Assembly (NCBI RefSeq): GCF_003946085.1
Contig: NZ_RHOB01000001.1
Coordinates: 1 to 64,000 of the forward strand
Direction of reading: 5' to 3'
DNA length: 64,000 bases
Source: Levilactobacillus angrenensis
Lineage (GTDB): Bacteria; Bacillota; Bacilli; Lactobacillales; Lactobacillaceae
A model generated the notes under the pieces. It saw nothing but the letters and a program-made list of their open reading frames with translations, was not told the DNA's origin and did not search any database. A program made the position numbers and the translations under genes. Positions 6,263-48,030 of the stretch are shown in pieces (positions within the stretch are counted from its first letter, which is position 1; every line of letters starts with the position of its first letter).

Positions 6263-6586
6263 ATGGCATACGTTTACTTGGGGACGGCCATTATTGGCGA
6301 ATTGATCGGCACCAATCTCTTGAAAGCTGCGGCGGGATTCACCCGTTTTTGGCCCGCGGTGGGAGCATTACTGGCGTACGGGCTGTGTTTTTTCTTTCTT
6401 TCGTTAGCCATGAAGCAAATCGACTTGAACGTGGCCTACGCCATCTGGGCCGGCATCGGCATCGTGGTCACCACAGTGCTGGCCGTCCTGTTGTGGCACG
6501 AGCCGCTGAACTTTGCCAGTTTACTAGGGACCGCGCTGGTCATCTTGGGCGTAGTCATTTTAAATTTGTACGGGCCCAGCCACTGA
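6263..6586 (+). CDS. Small multidrug resistance (SMR) family exporter
   Basis: 107 residues with four predicted membrane helices. The first helix carries the essential membrane Glu in AIIGELIGTNLLK (Glu at about residue 13). The second half has the family pattern DLNVAYAIWAGIGIV and a C-terminal GTALVILGVVILNL. SMR proteins work as antiparallel dimers that exchange protons for cationic drugs, quaternary ammonium compounds or guanidinium. Guanidinium (Gdx) exporters usually read G..E.......K, which is close to this sequence, so the substrate class is not certain. Start ATG follows AAGGGGG. No guanidine riboswitch is recognisable upstream. The gene stands alone between repeats. Confidence 0.88.
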   Translation: MAYVYLGTAIIGELIGTNLLKAAAGFTRFWPAVGALLAYGLCFFFLSLAMKQIDLNVAYAIWAGIGIVVTTVLAVLLWHEPLNFASLLGTALVILGVVILNLYGPSH

Positions 6587-6599
6587 AAAAGTGTGACGA

Positions 6600-6760
6600 C
6601 AAGCGGTTAACTGTTAAGCGGAACCAGTTGCCGGTTGGCGCACGTTTCAGCCATGAGGCCACTGTGAGACGTGTTTCTCAACTCAAAGCGAGGTGTCGAG
6701 ACCGCTCTTTAGCTCGCCCGTCACGACGAGTAGGAACCATTGGACGCCAGACACGTGAGC
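6600..6760 (-). repeat. Repeat family B (reverse) plus family A fragment
   Basis: Read on the minus strand, 6600-6655 contains GGCTGAAACGTGCGCCAAC and GGTTCCGCTTAA, the core of repeat family B found at 12546, 51266, 63618 and 7760. At 6680-6725 the block CTCAAAGCGAGGTGTCGAGACCG is the same as in the copy at 15345. It follows directly after the SMR gene and contains no gene. Confidence 0.6.
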
Positions 6761-6875
6761 GACTAGCCACCGAGTTTATTCGATGGTAATTGACTCGTTT
6801 CAGTACCGAATTTCTGACGATTTAATGGCCATCACTAACAAGGATGGTTAGCTGGCACGATGTAAATGACAAGTC

Positions 6876-6917
6876 AAAGAGACCAAGCCCCGTCGAAAAC
6901 GGTTGCTTGGTCTCTTT
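6876..6917. terminator. Strong 13-bp hairpin between SMR gene and ABC relic
   Basis: Arms AAAGAGACCAAGC (6876-6888) and GCTTGGTCTCTTT (6905-6917) are perfectly complementary. U-tracts are weak on both sides, so it may be a bidirectional terminator or a stable 3' end. Confidence 0.6.
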
Positions 6918-6956
6918 GTAGAGCTATTGCGTTCACGATAGCACCAATCCTAGCAA

Positions 6957-7403
6957 TTACAACTTAATGATAAAGTGAAGCTTGACTGCCCCAATACCAA
7001 CATTTGCACCGTTATAGATAGACTCGTAAGCTTGATCAATTATCATCTTTCCTTCAATAGAATCAATATTCTTCTGGGGCCAAGAAAAAATTATTTTTGA
7101 AAAAATGGGAACGTAGTCAAATCGAAAGTCAAAAGTCAGTTGGGCAATTTTACCCTGAAAATAAATTCCTATGATATGAGCCCCATAAATAAGCAAGCTT
7201 AAAATCGCTACTGTGGTTAAAACAATTACTATACTAGATTCTGGTTGAACAACAATCTTTGCAGCATACGCTGGTATTACTGTTATTCCAACTGTGTACA
7301 AAATGTCAGTAACCATCAATACCAGTAATAGCGAATAAAAGCTCCGAGAAAATTTCTTTAAAAATATTTTTAAAATGAATTTCCAATTATCTGTTTTCCT
7401 CAT
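6957..7403 (-). pseudogene. N-terminal membrane fragment of an ABC exporter
   Basis: 148 residues resembling the first part of an ABC_membrane exporter subunit. There is a basic N-terminus (MRKTDNWKFILKIFLKKF), two to three hydrophobic helices and the typical YFQGKIAQLTFDFRFDYVPIFSKII cytoplasmic segment. The normal protein continues through helices 3-6 and an ATPase of about 230 residues, but this frame ends after about residue 140 with a short unrelated tail, so the ATP-binding half is missing. It is AT-rich with codon use unlike the neighbours. Together with the two overlapping micro-ORFs just upstream it looks like the residue of a peptide or bacteriocin export operon. Confidence 0.6.
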
Positions 7404-7407
7404 GACA

Positions 7408-7542
7408 TCACCCTATTTGACAAGGAAGGTTTGGCGATACTGTTCTACTTTGCTTTTTTTGAAAATGAATAATATTCAGCCCTTTATCATACTTAATCAT
7501 TTCAACATTAAGTCCTGCGATAATTGAATCAGGGAATTTCAT
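7408..7542 (-). CDS. 44-residue micro-ORF in the AT-rich island
   Basis: ATG 7540-7542 to TGA 7408-7410, ending five bases before the ABC fragment starts. The peptide begins MKFPDSIIAGLNVEMIKYDKG and ends NLPCQIG. It has no obvious leader motif. The close spacing with both neighbours (its start overlaps the 3' end of the ORF at 7529-7660 in another frame) is typical of a compact operon. No family is recognised. It may be a fragment of a maturation protein. Confidence 0.3.
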   Translation of the reverse strand: MKFPDSIIAGLNVEMIKYDKGLNIIHFQKKQSRTVSPNLPCQIG

Positions 7543-39376: not shown

Positions 39377-40279
39377 ATCTTTAAGCGCATCATTAAAGGG
39401 GGCCTAGGTGCCCTGGCAATTGGCTTAGTTGTCGGTGGCGGGTACCTTGCCGCGCAAGCGCAAACTGAAAAGCCCAGCGCCTTGGTGAAGGTCGGCAATT
39501 ATGCGGCCAGCACGGACTTTTTGAATTTGAGTGCCTATTACCAAACGACCCGCCCCGTGACGGTCAAAGTCGCTTATTTCCCTACGTATAAATCCGGCCA
39601 CGCCATTCGGCAAAAGCTCACGTTACCCACCGGTATCACGGTGGCGGGAAATCTGACGTCCACCAAATCCGGCAGCTATTTGGTGCCCAGCCTTCAGTTG
39701 TTCTTGGCCCGTCTGAGCTACCCTGCCCTAGCCAATAGCGCTAAGCCGGGCTATACGATTGACCCCGGCGCGAGTGCGTATGATCCGCAAGCGACCATCA
39801 CCGACACGACTAAGCTGAGTGCCTTCAAACGGGTTCCCGCTCCCGATTACATGCCGGGTTACAGCCACGGCGACCTCTACATTGGCGGTGCCAAAGCAGC
39901 AGTGAGTCCAGTTGAACCGCACACTAAGAGTATTCGGGTGACGCCAGATGGCTACTTGGAAGTGCTCAAGTACGATAGCCGTGCCAACGCCGGCTTGGGC
40001 TTTTACCAAAAACCTATCGGCATGGCCAAAATCGTGAAGACCGATTTCAAAGATCCTAACCGCACGCTGTACTTCAGCCATGACATCACCGGGGTAAAAA
40101 CCCAGCGCGTCATTCGACGTGGCCAAACGCTTTACCGCCTGACCCTAAAGAACCTTCATCAGCCCCAGCACATTGCGGGCGATTCCGAAACGGGAACTGC
40201 TGGGACGTTTGATAGCCTCTACCGAATCGGCGGTCACCTCTATTACACGTTTATCGGCTATGACGGTGTCAGTGATTAA
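39377..40279 (+). CDS. Membrane-anchored or secreted protein with apparent ATC start
   Basis: Reading from ATC 39377 gives 300 residues. (M)FKRIIKGGLGALAIGLVVGGGY forms a signal anchor or signal peptide, followed by an extracytoplasmic domain of unknown family (..TDFLNLSAYYQTTRPVTVKVAYF.., GYSHGDLYIGGAKA). AAAGGAG lies nine bases before the ATC, an ideal position. No ATG, GTG or TTG exists in frame until TTG 39482, which would delete the signal. Either the ATC is used inefficiently, or the gene lost its start by mutation. Promoter TATACT near 39332. It may be controlled through the twin palindromes. Confidence 0.55.
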   Translation: MFKRIIKGGLGALAIGLVVGGGYLAAQAQTEKPSALVKVGNYAASTDFLNLSAYYQTTRPVTVKVAYFPTYKSGHAIRQKLTLPTGITVAGNLTSTKSGSYLVPSLQLFLARLSYPALANSAKPGYTIDPGASAYDPQATITDTTKLSAFKRVPAPDYMPGYSHGDLYIGGAKAAVSPVEPHTKSIRVTPDGYLEVLKYDSRANAGLGFYQKPIGMAKIVKTDFKDPNRTLYFSHDITGVKTQRVIRRGQTLYRLTLKNLHQPQHIAGDSETGTAGTFDSLYRIGGHLYYTFIGYDGVSD

Positions 40280-41074: not shown

Positions 41075-41878
41075 TTAGGCGAGCCACTGCGTCACTAATG
41101 GCTCATACGTCGCAATCAATTGTTCCTGTTCGACGAACTTTCCCAAGAGATTGATTGAATTCAGTTCCTTTTGGAAAATCGGATTTTGAATCGCTAGCGT
41201 TCGCGACCGTTGGCGACTAGCCTTACCTTTCAGCGTTAGCCACTGCACCACGTTAACGGGCGACTGAATAGCTGTAAACGTGGCAATTGGCGTTTCACGC
41301 AATACGCTAAATAAATGGTCGGCCATCTGAATACCACGACTATCTAAGTCACCCAAGTAAGTGAGCTGAACTTGGCGCTGTTCCAGGGAATGGATCAAGG
41401 TCAGGTAGGTGGCATTAAAATCGTTGCCCGATTGATTAATCAGTGGCCAGTCCGGATGCAAACGATGGAGCCAGGCGAAGACCCCATTATTTTCCACAAT
41501 GATGGCGCGATTGCTTGCCAACGGAAAGGTCATCATCGCCGGTACCTGCCACGGGCTGAGCGTAATTGGCTGGGGCAGATCCGTTTGAAAAATATTGGCA
41601 CTTGTAAATACCCGACCAATTAAATTCGCGGTCAGCTCCTTGATTTGCTGCGGTTGAAAACAATTCGTTAAGACCCAATGATAATAATCGTAGACGGCGG
41701 GATTTTCCTGTGGGTCATTGAGACTGTGGGCGGTCAGACCCAAATCGACGGCTTGTTGACCCCGTGGTGGCAAAACATCCCCGGCCGTAATGCGGTCAAA
41801 CAACTTGGCTAATTGCGGGGCTTCATGCGGGGCCCGTTTACCCGTGGCCGTCTCATAAGCCTGTTGATACTCAGTCAT
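41075..41878 (-). CDS. jetD: Wadjet JetD-like nuclease subunit (Toprim)
   Basis: 267 residues. ATG 41878 overlaps the jetC stop by eight bases. The C-terminal half shows the topoisomerase VI A-type Toprim pattern: the Glu strand AIIVENNGVFAWL at about residue 126 and the acidic TYLGDLDSRGIQMADHLF at about residue 175. JetD cleaves circular DNA extruded by the JetABC motor. It is shorter than the about 390-residue JetD of type I systems, with a reduced N-terminal arm (DUF3322-like part not evident), so it belongs to a different Wadjet subtype; I cannot tell which by eye. Confidence 0.82.
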   Translation of the reverse strand: MTEYQQAYETATGKRAPHEAPQLAKLFDRITAGDVLPPRGQQAVDLGLTAHSLNDPQENPAVYDYYHWVLTNCFQPQQIKELTANLIGRVFTSANIFQTDLPQPITLSPWQVPAMMTFPLASNRAIIVENNGVFAWLHRLHPDWPLINQSGNDFNATYLTLIHSLEQRQVQLTYLGDLDSRGIQMADHLFSVLRETPIATFTAIQSPVNVVQWLTLKGKASRQRSRTLAIQNPIFQKELNSINLLGKFVEQEQLIATYEPLVTQWLA

Positions 41879-44800
41879 GGACATCCCCCCAAGTCAAGGC
41901 GGGCCGCACCACGTTTTCGTGGAACCGACCATCGTTTTGGTTGGCGGGGGCAATCACGTCATAGGCAATGTTGTCGACACCATCCGCCAAGATTTTATTT
42001 TGAGCGCCACTAGGCATGGTCGCAATGAAATTGAAACCAAAGCGGGCAATGGTCTTGGCAAACGACTTGGCCGTTTCCGGATCCAATTTATCCGCAAACT
42101 CATCGAACATGACCAGGTACGGTGCATCTGGCAACTTAGCTCGTTGCAAGACCATCTTCGGCACCAATAACAGTGGCAACACCATCGCCTGGGCCTTTTC
42201 CGCACCGGAACCACCGGATTGAACAAACTTATCGTCGACCTCTTCGTAGTGGTCTTCATCACTTTGACGCCGCTTGATCAGGACCTTAAATGCGGACCAC
42301 TGGCGCGTATCCAGCAGTCGTTGGGCGGCCGCCATGAACAACTCATCATCGTCAGCGACGGTCAGGTCATCGGCTAACTTTTCCAATCGATTTTGAATCT
42401 CTGCTAATAACGTTGGGCGCTCTTGAAGTTGCGGGTCACAAGCCTCTGCGATGACTTTTTCATCGACATCGACCGGTGTCAGGGTGATTTTTAATTTGAT
42501 ACTCTGTTCGCGACTGACCCCTTCCGTCAACATCTGGTTGTAATCGTCAATCAACCGATATTGCGATGTAATCCGTTGGACGGCCGCCGCCATGTAGGTA
42601 TCTTGGGCCACATTATTGCCGGTTGTGAGTTCCTGTAACGCCCGTTCCACGTGACTTTCATCAGTCGCCATCAGTAAGAGGGCCTTATTGATGTCAAACG
42701 CCACCACTGTCAAACCATTCCGATTGACGGAGCGCTGCTGACGCATGGCACTGGCAAAATCGTTATACCCGCGTTCTTCAAACAGCGTGTCTAAAGCGTT
42801 GCGGTCGATGCCATCACTATTATTCTTATGAATCAAGCGGCCGATACGGTCACTGATATCACCGTAATCATTGTTACGGACCTCGCTACGATGTTGCTGT
42901 ACGAAGTCCAAGGCTTCGAGAATCGTCGTCACCGTTTCTTCTGCCGGAACATAAGGTGCCAGCGTCTGCAAAATGGCCTGCCCATCCGTTTCCAACTGGT
43001 CCAGCCGATCCTTGAGGCCGACCATATCATCCTGGGCAGAACTGATTCGGCCTTCCGCATTGGCCTGCTGGTTGTTCAGTGTCGCGCGTTCTCTTTCAAA
43101 TTGATGTTGTTCATTTTCGGCTTGGGTAATCTTTTGGTCAATCTGCGTATCAATGACCAGTGCATCCCGTCGCTTTTGCGTATCCGCGATCGTGGTTTGC
43201 GCCTGTTGTACATCAAAGTCCGGATCCATTTGTGCACTTACGTCGGCGGCCTGCCGCTCATAAATCGTTTGCGTGTTGGTCAGACTCTCTAATTGCCGAG
43301 CTAAGTCGGCCAACGTCTTCACCATCTGAGTCAAGGCTTGCTGTTGCTTACCCAATTCCGGCAAGAAATCACTTTGGTCTAAAATGACTTTTAAATCGGG
43401 ATGAGCGGTCAAAGCGGCCTGCTGTTTCGTCAAAATTTCTTGGAACTGATCATTCATTTTGGCTGCGCCGGCCTCGTGAACTGCCACGTTATCCTGTTGC
43501 AGATCCTTGCGCACGCGACCCTGTAGTGGTCCCTGCAGTCGTTGGTCAATCCGGTCTGCTAAGGTATCGCGCATCTCGCCCACGATTTGGACATCGCGAC
43601 TAACACGTGCCTTGGCGCGTTCATCGGCTTGATATTGCGTCAACACCTTTTTCATCTGCCGAATGTACTCCAGCAAACGGTCATTGACCACTGTGGGTTC
43701 AACCTCGGTGACAACGTCCATCAATTCAGTCAGGCCAGTGGCTCGAGTGGCCAACTGCGTTAACAGCGGCCGTAATTGCTGAGTCTGTAGATCTGTTTGC
43801 TGATCTGTGAGCGTCGTTTGTTGTCGAGCTACCTCAGCCAAATGCCTTTGGACCTTTTGCAATTGCTTCTGTTGGGCCTGATAGGTGGCCAGTTGTTTGG
43901 TCAAGCTTTGAATCTGGGCTTGATACTGGTCACGTAAAACGACGATGCTCTGCTGCTCGGCTTTGGCTTGGCGCAGTTGGCGTAACTTTTCCGTCACTTG
44001 GTCCAAACTAGCCGTCACCAATTGTAGCTGTTCTTGTACCGTTGCGATCATTTGCCGTGCTTGATCGATGACTTCTTGTTTTTTCTCATAGTCTTGGCGA
44101 ACCCGACTGTATGGCAACAGCGTCGTCTCGCGAATGTGATTCAGGTTACGCCAGAAAATTTCTTTTTTCATCTTCTGTAACCGAATCTGGGCCTGTTTCA
44201 ACCGTTCCAAGACACCTTTAGTGCGGTTCACTTCCCGTTGACTATCAGCAACCTGTTGAATGATCTGCGGGTCGATTCCCTCTTGCGCATTTTTCAAAGC
44301 TTCTCGAATCGGCGTAAACCGGGCATTTCCCGCCGTTAAAATGGGTGAGGCCAATAGCCGATAAACCGCGGCCAGCTTGCCCAATGATTCACCACTGGTA
44401 AACCCATAGACCTGCGTCGCTGCGTATTCTCGATAATTGATTGCCTGATTAAAGATCCGTAATTGCTTGCCTAAGCCAGCGTTAGCCTCACGGAATTCAT
44501 TTTCATTGAGTCCGGTGCCATCGGTGCGTGTCGTGACTAAGCGTAGCTCGGCAGTTGGTTGATTACTGATGACTACAAACCACCAAGTCGGCTTGCGTGT
44601 TTCACCGACAGCACGGTGGGCGCCCAGGCCCAAGATGACCTGGCGTTTTTGTGAACGTAACCGCATGTAACTATAACCGGTGCGGACCTTCATGGCACCG
44701 CTGCCCCAGCCCAGCAACATACTTTCAAAATTACGTGATTCCCGGGCACTGTTCCGCGGATTACCGGTCTGGGTCAACTTGTCAGTCCCCTTAGCCGAAT

Positions 44801-44993
44801 TGAAAGACGGCGTCGCAATCGACCCATCGATCAGCATGGGGAAGAAACAGTTGGCCAGCGTCGTCTTCCCCGCCGCATTTTCCCCAATCAACGTTAAATT
44901 ACCGTTCTCTGCTGCTGGTAAGTCCAGCGCCCCGTACTTATTGAAGCTCCGCAAGTGAAAACTAACTGGTGTCAATTGTTCTTTAAGTTCCAT
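41871..44993 (-). CDS. jetC: Wadjet JetC-like SMC/MukB-type ATPase
   Basis: 1040 residues from ATG 44993. The N-terminal head has Walker A LTLIGENAAGKTTLANCFFPML (about 30-50). Two long coiled-coil arms (about 250-480 and 500-720) flank a hinge-like part. The C-terminal head has the signature FVQSGGSGAEKAQAMVLPLLL and Walker B APYLVMFDEFADKLDPET. This is the loop-extruding motor of the MukBEF-like JetABC complex. It starts four bases after the jetB stop, with GAGGGGG as ribosome site, so translation is coupled. Confidence 0.9.
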   Translation of the reverse strand: MELKEQLTPVSFHLRSFNKYGALDLPAAENGNLTLIGENAAGKTTLANCFFPMLIDGSIATPSFNSAKGTDKLTQTGNPRNSARESRNFESMLLGWGSGAMKVRTGYSYMRLRSQKRQVILGLGAHRAVGETRKPTWWFVVISNQPTAELRLVTTRTDGTGLNENEFREANAGLGKQLRIFNQAINYREYAATQVYGFTSGESLGKLAAVYRLLASPILTAGNARFTPIREALKNAQEGIDPQIIQQVADSQREVNRTKGVLERLKQAQIRLQKMKKEIFWRNLNHIRETTLLPYSRVRQDYEKKQEVIDQARQMIATVQEQLQLVTASLDQVTEKLRQLRQAKAEQQSIVVLRDQYQAQIQSLTKQLATYQAQQKQLQKVQRHLAEVARQQTTLTDQQTDLQTQQLRPLLTQLATRATGLTELMDVVTEVEPTVVNDRLLEYIRQMKKVLTQYQADERAKARVSRDVQIVGEMRDTLADRIDQRLQGPLQGRVRKDLQQDNVAVHEAGAAKMNDQFQEILTKQQAALTAHPDLKVILDQSDFLPELGKQQQALTQMVKTLADLARQLESLTNTQTIYERQAADVSAQMDPDFDVQQAQTTIADTQKRRDALVIDTQIDQKITQAENEQHQFERERATLNNQQANAEGRISSAQDDMVGLKDRLDQLETDGQAILQTLAPYVPAEETVTTILEALDFVQQHRSEVRNNDYGDISDRIGRLIHKNNSDGIDRNALDTLFEERGYNDFASAMRQQRSVNRNGLTVVAFDINKALLLMATDESHVERALQELTTGNNVAQDTYMAAAVQRITSQYRLIDDYNQMLTEGVSREQSIKLKITLTPVDVDEKVIAEACDPQLQERPTLLAEIQNRLEKLADDLTVADDDELFMAAAQRLLDTRQWSAFKVLIKRRQSDEDHYEEVDDKFVQSGGSGAEKAQAMVLPLLLVPKMVLQRAKLPDAPYLVMFDEFADKLDPETAKSFAKTIARFGFNFIATMPSGAQNKILADGVDNIAYDVIAPANQNDGRFHENVVRPALTWGDVHD

Positions 44994-44997
44994 CACG

Positions 44998-46023
44998 TTA
45001 TTTTTCCCCCTCATCTGGCGTCTGCGCATCTTGTTCTACCATCGTTCTCATCACAAAGCGGTTCACGATTGGCGTGGGACTGACGTAGTTATTTTCTACT
45101 TTGACCAACCCGTTGTCCGTCAAAGCCTGTTTAACTAAACCGACCGCAACGTCCGTATCCGGAAAAATCTGGCGGGTTAGCAAGTGAATGCGCGTGACCA
45201 ACATGTCATTGGGAATCCCCACACCTAGGGAATGGGCGACGGCAATGGCAACGACGAATGGCTTTGCCTTGCTGGGTTGCCGGGTATTATCGAGTAATAG
45301 GGCATAATCATCCCCGCACTCAAGATTGAAACGTTCCAACTGCGCCCACTGTTCCGCAATTTCTGCTTTATGCAGCAATAGATCCGGCCACAACTTGGAT
45401 GATCGACTCAAATACCGTTGCGTTAACAACGCCCGGTTCACCCGCTGGATTGGCGTCAACGGTTGCGTATCCGGTGCAGCCTGAAGGTGATTGACCAGGC
45501 ACTGAGCAAAGTAGTTAAAGTCCGGGCTCACATCCCAATAATCCTCTACCGTTTGGGTCTGCTCGCTAGGACCCAAGTCGGGCATGTCTGGCACAAACAA
45601 GGCGAAGCGGTCCACGAATAGCGCCGTAATCTGCCGACGAATCTCTTTTTCATTGAGGGTCACGACTTCGCTGTGGACCTGACGAATAATTGTCTGGGTC
45701 GCTACTACGCGGTCACTTTGAGTATTTTGCAATTCTGGTAAATTAATGACTGCTTTGATAGTCGCCAATAAAACGTGGACTGCCTCAGGTTCTAGTCGCT
45801 GGGTCCCGAATAAGAACAGCAAGTTTTCTTGATAATTATCGGGGACCACGCCGAGGAGATTTTTAAAATAACTGTTCAAGCGTTGCTGATTTGCCGGCTT
45901 TTTCAAGGCATTAATCGCATCTACCATCGGCCCCGTGGTTTTGGGCGTAATCGTCCGCGTAAAGACCCCGTTATTTAAAAGTTGATTGATGATCAGTCGA
46001 TCCGTTGCTCGTAAATTACTCAT
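44998..46023 (-). CDS. jetB: Wadjet JetB-like KITE subunit
   Basis: 341 residues. ATG 46023 lies within ATGAGTAA, overlapping the jetA stop by eight bases; AAGGGGG is ten bases upstream. It has no catalytic motif. An N-terminal helix region and a C-terminal winged-helix part (IPNDMLVTRIHLLTRQIFPDTDVAVGLVKQALTDNGLVKVEN) fit the MukE-like KITE protein that binds the kleisin JetA. Assignment rests mainly on gene order JetA-B-C-D and coupling with jetC. Acidic tail. Confidence 0.78.
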   Translation of the reverse strand: MSNLRATDRLIINQLLNNGVFTRTITPKTTGPMVDAINALKKPANQQRLNSYFKNLLGVVPDNYQENLLFLFGTQRLEPEAVHVLLATIKAVINLPELQNTQSDRVVATQTIIRQVHSEVVTLNEKEIRRQITALFVDRFALFVPDMPDLGPSEQTQTVEDYWDVSPDFNYFAQCLVNHLQAAPDTQPLTPIQRVNRALLTQRYLSRSSKLWPDLLLHKAEIAEQWAQLERFNLECGDDYALLLDNTRQPSKAKPFVVAIAVAHSLGVGIPNDMLVTRIHLLTRQIFPDTDVAVGLVKQALTDNGLVKVENNYVSPTPIVNRFVMRTMVEQDAQTPDEGEK

Positions 46024-47593
46024 GGTCTTCATCCCCCTTGGCAAACCACACCGCAAATGACCCCGGCAAGGTGACCGTATAACGTTCATCCGCACAGTGA
46101 ATCTGGATTGGCTCCGCTTTTAACAGCGCCACTTTAACGACTGGTCGGCCGAATGGCGCGAAACTATCATAATGCCGATATCCAGTGGCGCTATACAACC
46201 GCACGACTTCATCTCGCGCATGGCGAGATTGAAAGGTCAGGTCATGGTCAACAACGCCATAATCTGCGCTTTGCATCACTAACTTTTGAAATTCTACTAA
46301 GCCTTCTTGCGCGTCTGGCACCACCGGGTCATCCGTTGCAACGAGGGGATTATCCGCCTCGGTAGCGACCTTGGCCGTCTTAGTTTGGGCCGCATAAACG
46401 ACGGGGCCCATCGTCGTCGCGTTTAACAAATCTGTAGCATCATCCAGATCTTCACGGTCATTGGGCAAGTGGCGGGGAATTGGCTGGCGAACGATCAGAG
46501 ACTGATAATGCGTCAGTAACTGATCGATTTGCCCCGTTAGTGCCTTGATATCAACGGTCTGGCTTTGAATATGGTCATACTCTTGACTGAGCAAGCGAAT
46601 CGCACCCAGAATCGTTTGAAATAAGAGGTAGACCGTGTCCAAGCTATTGTCGATGGCCGTCGCACTGGGATCAAAGCTCCCGGCAAGGCGTTCTAACTGC
46701 CGTTGCGCATAGTCCTGGACATTTTGAAAACGTAACACCATCTTCGCCTGGTCACCGGTCGCATGGGCGGCATCCAAGTCATCACGCCCCTGTTGGCTAC
46801 GTGCGACCCGTTTACTAAAGCTGGTCGAATCCGCCAGCGCCTGAATCCGTGGTCCTTGGCTCAACAGTTGCTTAAAGGCCGGAATCGCCTTGTCCCGCAA
46901 CATTTGCTGTAACTGACTGGCCGCGATACCGCCGTGATTAAACGCCAAGTCATTGGCCAATTCACTGAGGTCTTCATCCAGCTTATGCATCCCCTTCATC
47001 ACATCCGCGTAAGCCGCCAGCATATTTTGAAAGTCGTTGAATAGCTGTGTATCTTCCGCCGATAATTCTGGATCAGCCAGCTTTGCCACTAGCGCACAGT
47101 ATTCCTGAATACGCGTGATGTTGGCGGTCACTGTGTTGTCAGCGTCAATGACCTTGGCCATCAGCGTCAAATACTCAATCCCACTACTCGTAATTTTATA
47201 GACGTAGGACTGGTGAATGTGATAGCCCCCGTTCATCATGCGTTTTCGAACCTTCTGGGGTGATACCTCGATCAGTCCGGCCTGATTGCCCAAGATATCT
47301 AAAATTCGCTTCAAGACTTCATCCGTAACGGGCTTTTCTTCCTCATCCAGGTACTCGTTATTGTATTTCTGAGACAGGTAATTCAAATCTGTGACCTCGC
47401 CACTGGCGGCACCGTCATGGTACAGAATCGTTAGCACGTTCCAGCCGGCCAGCCGGTGATCTCGGCTGAGTCCGAGGTTATTGGCCAGTAATAGGTCTCT
47501 TAATTTTGGATCAAGTGCGACTGCGATGGCGCTCCCCTCCTGACTACTTTTAATTGCGATATTCGCTAATCTCTTTAGTATACTGGCAACCAC
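46016..47593 (-). CDS. jetA: Wadjet JetA-like kleisin subunit
   Basis: 525 residues from GTG 47593, or 503 residues from an ATC at 47525-47527. N-terminal winged-helix features (LRDLLLANNLGLSRDHRLAGWNVLTIL, then EVLKRILDILGNQAGLIEV) are followed by a long helical middle (neck-binding and dimer part) and a C-terminal beta part (PVVKVALLKAEPIQIHCADERYTVTLPGSFAVWFAKG). This order fits MukF-like JetA. The GTG has no Shine-Dalgarno, while AGGAGGGG is placed eight bases before the ATC, so the true start is open. First gene of a promoter with LexA-like box. Confidence 0.82.
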   Translation of the reverse strand: MVASILKRLANIAIKSSQEGSAIAVALDPKLRDLLLANNLGLSRDHRLAGWNVLTILYHDGAASGEVTDLNYLSQKYNNEYLDEEEKPVTDEVLKRILDILGNQAGLIEVSPQKVRKRMMNGGYHIHQSYVYKITSSGIEYLTLMAKVIDADNTVTANITRIQEYCALVAKLADPELSAEDTQLFNDFQNMLAAYADVMKGMHKLDEDLSELANDLAFNHGGIAASQLQQMLRDKAIPAFKQLLSQGPRIQALADSTSFSKRVARSQQGRDDLDAAHATGDQAKMVLRFQNVQDYAQRQLERLAGSFDPSATAIDNSLDTVYLLFQTILGAIRLLSQEYDHIQSQTVDIKALTGQIDQLLTHYQSLIVRQPIPRHLPNDREDLDDATDLLNATTMGPVVYAAQTKTAKVATEADNPLVATDDPVVPDAQEGLVEFQKLVMQSADYGVVDHDLTFQSRHARDEVVRLYSATGYRHYDSFAPFGRPVVKVALLKAEPIQIHCADERYTVTLPGSFAVWFAKGDEDHE

Positions 47594-47698
47594 TGGATCA
47601 GGTCTAGTTCACTGGTAAAATTACGCTGTATTAATAATCTTATCTGCCTAAAATAAATATTTTAATTTTGGCATCTCGATTAATTATGCGTAGTGTTT

Positions 47699-47727
47699 AC
47701 TATACAGAACAGGTGTTCTGGTGTCAA
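47699..47727 (-). promoter_or_regulatory. Wadjet promoter with LexA-like box in the spacer
   Basis: On the minus strand consensus TTGACA (47722-47727) and TATAGT (47699-47704) are separated by exactly 17 bp. The spacer is filled by the dyad CAGAAC-n4-GTTCTG. Compared with the Firmicutes LexA box CGAACRNRYGTTYG, the 14-mer AGAACAGGTGTTCT (read on plus) matches 12 positions, all but the outermost pair. Repression by LexA and DNA-damage induction of the Wadjet operon are inferred. Confidence 0.7.
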
Positions 47728-47885: not shown

Positions 47886-48011
47886 ATAAAAAAATTACTT
47901 AAGTTCATCCTGGCAATCCTGCTCATCGGCGCCACGGCTAGTGTGCTACTCACACAGCGTGGCTCGACCGCCCGGGTAACGACCGCCATCACGACAACAA
48001 AAAACGGCTAG
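47886..48011 (+). CDS. 41-residue membrane micropeptide with apparent ATA start
   Basis: From ATA 47886 to TAG 48009-48011: (M)KKLLKFILAILLIGATASVLL, a textbook basic start and single membrane helix or signal peptide, then a Thr/Arg-rich tail. AAGAAGG lies eight bases before the ATA. No ATG, GTG or TTG is available in frame after the upstream TAA at 47853, so the peptide needs ATA (or nothing). It is divergent from the Wadjet operon. Its end adjoins a parS-like site. Confidence 0.4.
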   Translation: MKKLLKFILAILLIGATASVLLTQRGSTARVTTAITTTKNG

Positions 48012-48030
48012 CAGTGACTGCTACCCGCAT

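Follow-up and report, generated by a model that had tools for sequence, protein, structure and literature searches.

A divergent Wadjet-type operon of Levilactobacillus angrenensis with a candidate LexA operator and a probable AUC start codon

How hosts protect themselves from their own DNA-cutting plasmid defences has been little studied. The question is raised by the jet operon of Levilactobacillus angrenensis, found in a 64,000-nt stretch of DNA (hereafter the window; assembly GCF_003946085.1, contig NZ_RHOB01000001.1, positions 1 to 64,000) as four minus-strand open reading frames (ORFs) at 41075-47593 that abut or overlap, in agreement with the four coupled genes claimed by the first-pass annotation. 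From what is known of the family, a JetABC SMC motor and the Toprim protein JetD would extrude and cut incoming circular DNA. The output of the operon looks deliberately throttled, and the reading that is, on balance, slightly favoured here is that it is held down at two levels: in transcription, by LexA at a distal promoter (P1), and in translation, by an AUC start codon of jetA. The ordinary part would be the Wadjet-type operon itself, and the uncommon part a candidate LexA operator in one of two promoters together with a phylogenetically kept AUC start. The genes, the promoter-like sequences, the palindromic box and the start-codon pattern are seen directly in the DNA.

Its genes and structural models mark the operon as a compact and divergent Wadjet that comes closest to type II. 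The Wadjet identity proposed earlier is borne out by PADLOC, the Pfam family DUF2399, the JetC profile and structural matches of JetA and JetB. In particular, PADLOC matches JetC to JetC2 (1.1e-19) and JetD to JetD2 (1.8e-13), and JetD lies above the Pfam cut-off for DUF2399. A JetC profile compared with PDB sequences yielded one match, the JetC chain 9qe0_A (4.7e-18), and PDB sequence searches with JetA, JetB and JetD yielded no relevant match. The GENxxGKTT, SGGSGAEKAQ and MFDEFADKLD regions of JetC (Walker A, signature and Walker B) are kept in 25 aligned rows, and Toprim residue E131 and the GDLD motif of JetD are unchanged in 34/34. JetA and JetB of the window match nothing in Pfam or PADLOC and nothing meaningfully in NCBIfam; these profile sets miss both subunits of the system. 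By sequence, 1 of 34 JetA rows reaches PADLOC JetA3 (E 0.023), and 5 and 4 of 26 JetB rows match the JetB1 and JetB2 models, respectively.

The two subunits were placed by their AlphaFold models, which reach a predicted local distance difference test score (pLDDT) of 75.8 and a predicted template modelling score (pTM) of 0.50 for JetA, and a pLDDT of 83.4 and a pTM of 0.76 for JetB. In Foldseek, the best match of the JetA model is 9qe0_E (E 4.2e-6, prob 1.00, template modelling score (TM) 0.24), followed by MukF chains, and that of the JetB model is 9qe0_D (E 4.5e-8, TM 0.56), with MukE and PA14 JetABC chains lower; chains E and D were assigned as JetA and JetB from their length and the entry title, and many unrelated helical proteins stand under the best matches in both lists. 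The JetA superposition is poor overall, as would be expected of a flexible multi-domain protein. Taken by component, the operon contains an SMC ATPase (JetC), a kleisin (JetA), a KITE/MukE-like subunit (JetB) and a Toprim protein with its acidic residues (JetD). Since the curated type II cut-offs are missed (JetC with TIGR02680, 64.4 vs 462.85 bits; JetD with TIGR02679, 34.2 vs 196 bits), it is filed as a Wadjet nearest to type II and not as a type II member. The JetA profile matches 57 of 397 Lactobacillaceae genomes, weak and partial matches included; among 398 genomes of the class, searched for the family beyond Lactobacillaceae, only the window's own genome matched. A plasmid-borne Wadjet was also considered and set aside, as a JetC search of a plasmid collection yielded one weak Streptomyces match. 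For the alignments, extrapolated frames containing stops, which are either true breaks or wrong frame extrapolations, were left out (jetA 6/47, jetB 16/48, jetC 9/48 and jetD 1/49 named loci); of the remaining 41, 32, 39 and 48 frames, 33, 25, 24 and 33 were aligned, plus the window. The jetA frame of L020, which ends early, was used as found.

The translational level concerns the start codon of jetA, which most likely is an ATC lying 8 nt after AGGAGG, judging from sequence comparison. The start in the ORF list, GTG 47593, was corrected to ATC 47527-47525: the GTG has no Shine-Dalgarno (SD) sequence and falls between the -35 and -10 elements of the proximal promoter (P2). tblastn alignments of relatives start at residue 23 of the GTG-started frame, where the ATC stands, and at the aligned position the relatives have ATG, GTG, TTG or again ATC. 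When the 85 loci with jetA were merged by identical promoter stretches, 57 unique loci were obtained (a usable jetA was lacking in L044, L047 and L110). SD scoring classed 18 of them, the window included, as ATC/ATT (17 ATC, 1 ATT; one of them, L104, also shows a single weak TTG 21 codons farther upstream), 31 as canonical and 8 as ambiguous. At the window jetA, an AUH codon stands at the aligned position behind a strong SD, and no canonical start has SD support. An ATC is the probable start in 12 of the 17 Levilactobacillus loci, in 12 of the 13 core-clade loci and in a few other genera. Of the 18 ATC/ATT loci, nine (L017, L037, L051, L105, L020, L079, L107, L101 and L031) have no ATG, GTG or TTG from the in-frame stop up to the ATC/ATT. 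Downstream, the next canonical codon of the window jetA is codon 30, behind residues invariant in 34/34 rows (e.g., L18, G19, H24, G28 and W29). Moreover, the same test gave near-cognate-only starts for jetA in 13/47 loci and for none of jetB (0/48), jetC (0/49), jetD (0/49), recA (0/30) and lexA (0/30). This start was missed at first pass, and as a sign of throttling it is shared more widely than the box described below.

Near-cognate-only starts were also counted more broadly. Among 371 ORFs of this genome, four have SD support for a non-canonical codon only, one of them a secreted-protein gene beside the operon; jetA was classed as having both in this census, owing to a TTG with a weak score, 74 codons inside the open frame. 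Across 15 genus loci, such starts occur in 8/168 ORFs (three jetA, four of the secreted-protein gene and one with ATG as the next codon). The infC gene, known for an AUU, AUC or AUA start and for IF3 autocontrol, has an apparent ATA start in the genus, with TGGAGGTGGATTACCATA in 20/20 loci read from 35 genomes (L190-L209, including L195), which indicates that starts of the IF3 type exist there.

The jetA AUC might be a tolerated relic, a weak start that drifts without regulatory meaning. At least seven changes of start state are required on the JetA tree (49 classed rows), and the neighbouring secreted-protein gene starts with ATC/ATT in four species and with ATG, GTG or TTG in others, as would be expected of such drift. 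Yet the ATC persists in nearly all of the core clade, even where JetA identity falls to 61 percent, though ATG is one base away, and the strong SD is preserved with it. The relic explanation is regarded as a serious but rather doubtful one.

The transcriptional level rests on two promoters. At 47727-47699, TTGACA-17-TATAGT (P1) matches the consensus at 11/12 positions and contains CAGAACACCTGTTCTG in its 17-nt spacer, so that the claimed consensus promoter with a palindrome is confirmed. The second promoter, P2, reads TAGACC-18-TATACT in the window (47606-47577), is box-free and lies between P1 and jetA. A proximal promoter of the form TAGACS-17/18-TATACT, 34-57 nt upstream of the start codon, is present in 14 of the 57 loci, against 1.0 expected from shuffled sequence; within the core clade, 11 of 13 have it. 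By this sequence comparison, the conserved jet promoter is P2, not the box-bearing P1. Because P2 is free of the box in the window, LexA on P1 could not alone keep jet off, as had been proposed, and would modulate expression and not gate it. As a separate observation, the window (region 47665-47700), L023 and L016/L103 have the same 17 nt, CACTACGCATAATTAAT, right after the P1 -10 box, whereas the flanks differ.

The palindrome consists of two perfect 7-bp arms around CC, and CAGAACN4GTTCTG occurs exactly once in the window. The match to the LexA box at 12 of 14 positions that was claimed for it holds in part: four of the counted positions are unconstrained, and the specified positions of CGAACN4GTTCG are matched at 8/10. 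By the standard of the genus itself, the box remains a good candidate, and there is good evidence for a putative LexA site. The recA box of the genus reads [CG]GAACnnnnGTTCT in 30/30 and the lexA box CGAACnnCnGTTTG in 30/30 genomes (30 of 35 genus genomes were read for each gene), and recA, dnaE, parE, a Y-family polymerase gene and a MarR-type gene of this genome are likewise preceded by exact GAACN4GTTC sites; many further ones lie within genes. A score matrix was built from the recA, lexA, dnaE, parE and polymerase boxes, with the lexA box included and the jetA box left out. The jetA box scored 15.5 bits, second only to lexA among 371 sampled upstream regions (464 kb of this genome), of which 4 reach at least 14 bits, and 13.7-15.3 bits when single box classes were omitted. 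Moreover, it stands at the operator position in P1. A similar arrangement is seen in the Y-polymerase promoter of this genome (TTGCAA-17-TATAAT), whose spacer likewise holds the box, one base off the jetA register.

Across the jet loci, the box is mostly not conserved: it was found at 5 of the 57 unique loci and at 5 of 17 in Levilactobacillus, and a family-wide conserved element was rejected on this count. By the refuting condition that the first-pass annotation had set itself, a box not kept upstream of orthologous loci, this result goes largely against its claim, although the second subclade has a box elsewhere. An exact GAACN4GTTC lies within 400 bp in 4/48 loci. Boxes of at least 14 bits occur in the window, in L023 (sister species; GGAACACCTGTTCT) and in L079, whose box shares 13/14 positions with the lexA box; weaker boxes stand at the place of the latter in L020 (10.9) and L107 (8.9), and were counted because of that position. 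The boxes of the window and L023 are inside P1; those of L020, L079 and L107 directly adjoin the -35 element TAGACG of the proximal promoter. The two box-bearing groups lie apart within the core clade on the JetA tree, with L022, L017 and L103 nearby boxless. This pattern suggests two separate origins of LexA-type boxes at jet loci; two gains argue for use of the site, and against a family-wide rule and the general claim of the first-pass annotation.

A chance palindrome in a promoter spacer, with jet expression independent of SOS, could account for the lack of genome-wide enrichment of GAACN4GTTC (21 sites vs 34 for the reversed control pattern, so that enrichment was rejected as proof), for the 12 of 17 boxless loci in the genus and for the P1 promoter retained without a box in L016/L103. 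However, the jetA box is unlikely to be chance because of its position in the promoter and its rank of 2/371, and a box is kept in the sister species while an analogous one appears in the second subclade; coincidence is considered unlikely. Alternatively, the palindrome might be the operator of another regulator, such as a phage-type or MarR/GntR-like repressor. The outer bases of the jetA box deviate from CGAAC/GTTCG, its centre ACCT is absent from all other GAACN4GTTC sites of the genome, and no regulator gene coupled to the jet operon is present in the ORF list. Against this, the genus recA box likewise ends in T, the dnaE and Y-polymerase boxes likewise begin with CAGAAC, the centre of the lexA box is ATCT, and a box with the same core reappears at a second place in another subclade; a different repressor is judged quite unlikely.

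Several observations weigh against control at two levels. Besides the box-free P2, most orthologues have no box, including L017 and L103/L016, and the last two retain P1 (TTGACG-17-TATAGT) with an unrelated spacer. The L020 and L107 boxes are unremarkable by score, as the unrelated Companilactobacillus L042 scores 11.6. Over the 57 loci, approx. 0.4 boxes of at least 14 bits are expected (0.0067 each) and three are seen, or two if the sister species are counted once, and the lower bound of 13.7 bits for the jetA box is reached when the Y-polymerase box is taken out of the matrix. In addition, eight of the 57 loci were too ambiguous to class, L106 of the core clade starts with ATG, and the JetA model is modest (pTM 0.50; TM 0.24 to 9qe0_E). 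Finally, an ordinary start mis-assigned by this analysis, either GTG 47593, the expected choice of gene finders, or, in some relatives, a TTG/ATG a few codons further on, is improbable: nine of the 18 ATC/ATT loci do have in-frame canonical codons somewhere upstream, and a TTG/ATG lies four codons downstream in several relatives, approx. 20 nt from the SD and not excludable by conservation, but the GTG stands without an SD inside P2, the frames upstream of the ATC differ between the window and L023, 9 of the 18 loci have no canonical codon from stop to ATC/ATT, and the ATG of relatives is at the aligned position with equal SD spacing.

Under control at two levels, the weak conserved P2 would supply basal jet mRNA, and the stronger upstream P1 would probably be covered by LexA at the spacer box and opened in the SOS response, triggered by entering single-stranded plasmid DNA or by DNA damage. 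LexA at P1 would form an inducible layer over the basal promoter. Behind its strong SD, the jetA AUC is of a start type repressed by IF3, which would keep JetA scarce if initiation occurs at this codon in the cell, and as jetA is the first of four overlapping or abutting genes, the whole complex may be kept scarce through coupling. A more specific version, in which an older AUC/IF3 ceiling on jetA was joined by younger LexA operators, gained at least twice and raising Wadjet upon plasmid entry or damage, is put forward only tentatively. Conjugation is reported to induce SOS (PMC2958807); a LexA-controlled Wadjet would, if true, link a plasmid-entry alarm to an anti-plasmid weapon. A search of one collection of papers found none joining Wadjet, the SOS response and LexA, a search for Wadjet and start codons found no title on such starts, and in the main text of the C. 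cellulovorans Wadjet paper the terms LexA, SOS and 'regulat' were not found.

Features of the jet operon and its upstream region in the window
Feature	Position	Strand	Remark
jetA, kleisin-like subunit, 503 aa	46016..47527	(-)	ORF; start by SD and comparison; fold from model
jetB, KITE/MukE-like subunit, 344 aa	44998..46032	(-)	ATG start, overlaps jetA 3' end
jetC, SMC ATPase, 1040 aa from ATG 44993	41871..44993	(-)	frame open from 45029
jetD, Toprim nuclease, 269 aa	41075..41884	(-)	14-nt overlap with jetC
P1 (distal promoter) -35 TTGACA	47722..47727	(-)	
LexA-like box CAGAACACCTGTTCTG, within P1 spacer	47705..47720	(-)	
P1 -10 TATAGT	47699..47704	(-)	
P2 (proximal promoter, kept in relatives) -35 TAGACC	47601..47606	(-)	
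P2 -10 TATACT, spacer 18 nt	47577..47582	(-)	
Shine-Dalgarno AGGAGG, ATC 8 nt downstream	47536..47541	(-)	
jetA non-canonical start codon ATC (AUC), most likely start	47525..47527	(-)	
Terminator-like hairpin 3' of upstream EamA gene	48009..48023	(-)	sets EamA gene apart from jet operon

Of the named jet loci, the closest belongs to L. suantsaiihabitans (L023), with 90 percent identity in JetC and 92-93 percent in JetA. Among the 49 named relatives, 8 Levilactobacillus loci have the EamA gene upstream of the jet operon (in L023 it was not seen), and 10 have the secreted-protein gene on the downstream side; in part of the genus, the jet locus has thus been inherited as one. The secreted 300-aa protein, encoded downstream of jetD at 39377-40276 (+), has no Pfam match; its gene has an ATC start behind AAAGGAG, and its orthologues start with ATT in L023 and L016, with ATC in L017 and with ATG, GTG or TTG in others. 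No structured RNA in the window reaches Rfam gathering scores. Frames are possibly broken in some relatives: jetA ends early in L020, and jetC matches are split over two frames in L042 and L049. Elsewhere, a LexA-like GCGAACAAGTGTTCAC stands at position 1501 of L007, approx. 100 bp upstream of what we take, from the sequence by eye, to be an mraZ-type gene heading a division cluster. A further SOS candidate is a box CAAACGTATGTTCT (14.8 bits) near 3430 of L173, flanked by two divergent genes, one coding for a lipoprotein-like and the other for a membrane-anchored small protein. In L176, a gene at 6538-7456 (-), presumably for an RpiR-like regulator to judge by its N-terminus, has an ATC preceded by AAAGGGGG and lacks a canonical start of equal quality.

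Compared with known systems, the operon shares with Wadjet type II (the Neobacillus vireti Wadjet-II JetABC, PDB 9qe0) the SMC ATPase by sequence, JetA and JetB by best structural match, a Toprim JetD and the four-gene operon, but its JetC has 1040 aa against 1371 in 9qe0_A, and its JetD 269 aa against the 382 positions of the TIGR02679 model. Like the LexA/SOS promoters of the genus (recA, lexA, dnaE, parE and Y-family polymerase), P1 has a GAACN4GTTC-type box at or in the promoter, with a spacer geometry nearly that of the Y-polymerase promoter; unlike them, jet has it in no more than 5 of 17 species, where it takes one of two positions. Near-cognate starts have precedents in Streptomyces sigR, whose GTC start is repressed by IF3 (excerpt of PMC5472188), and in Staphylococcus aureus, where AUU/AUA starts with an extended SD, such as those of cvfC1 (AUU) and ccpN (AUA), are described as conserved and of lower yield (excerpt of PMC13009471). 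A conserved AUC on a defence operon would, if true, join infC, sigR and the S. aureus genes as an instance of expression set by the start codon, and start prediction limited to ATG, GTG and TTG misplaces such starts. The window jetA shares with infC, sigR, cvfC1 and ccpN a near-cognate start and a strong SD, and the apparent ATA start of the genus infC resembles the S. aureus AUA case; in contrast to all four, jetA leads a defence operon, and the IF3 dependence of its probable near-cognate start is presumed.

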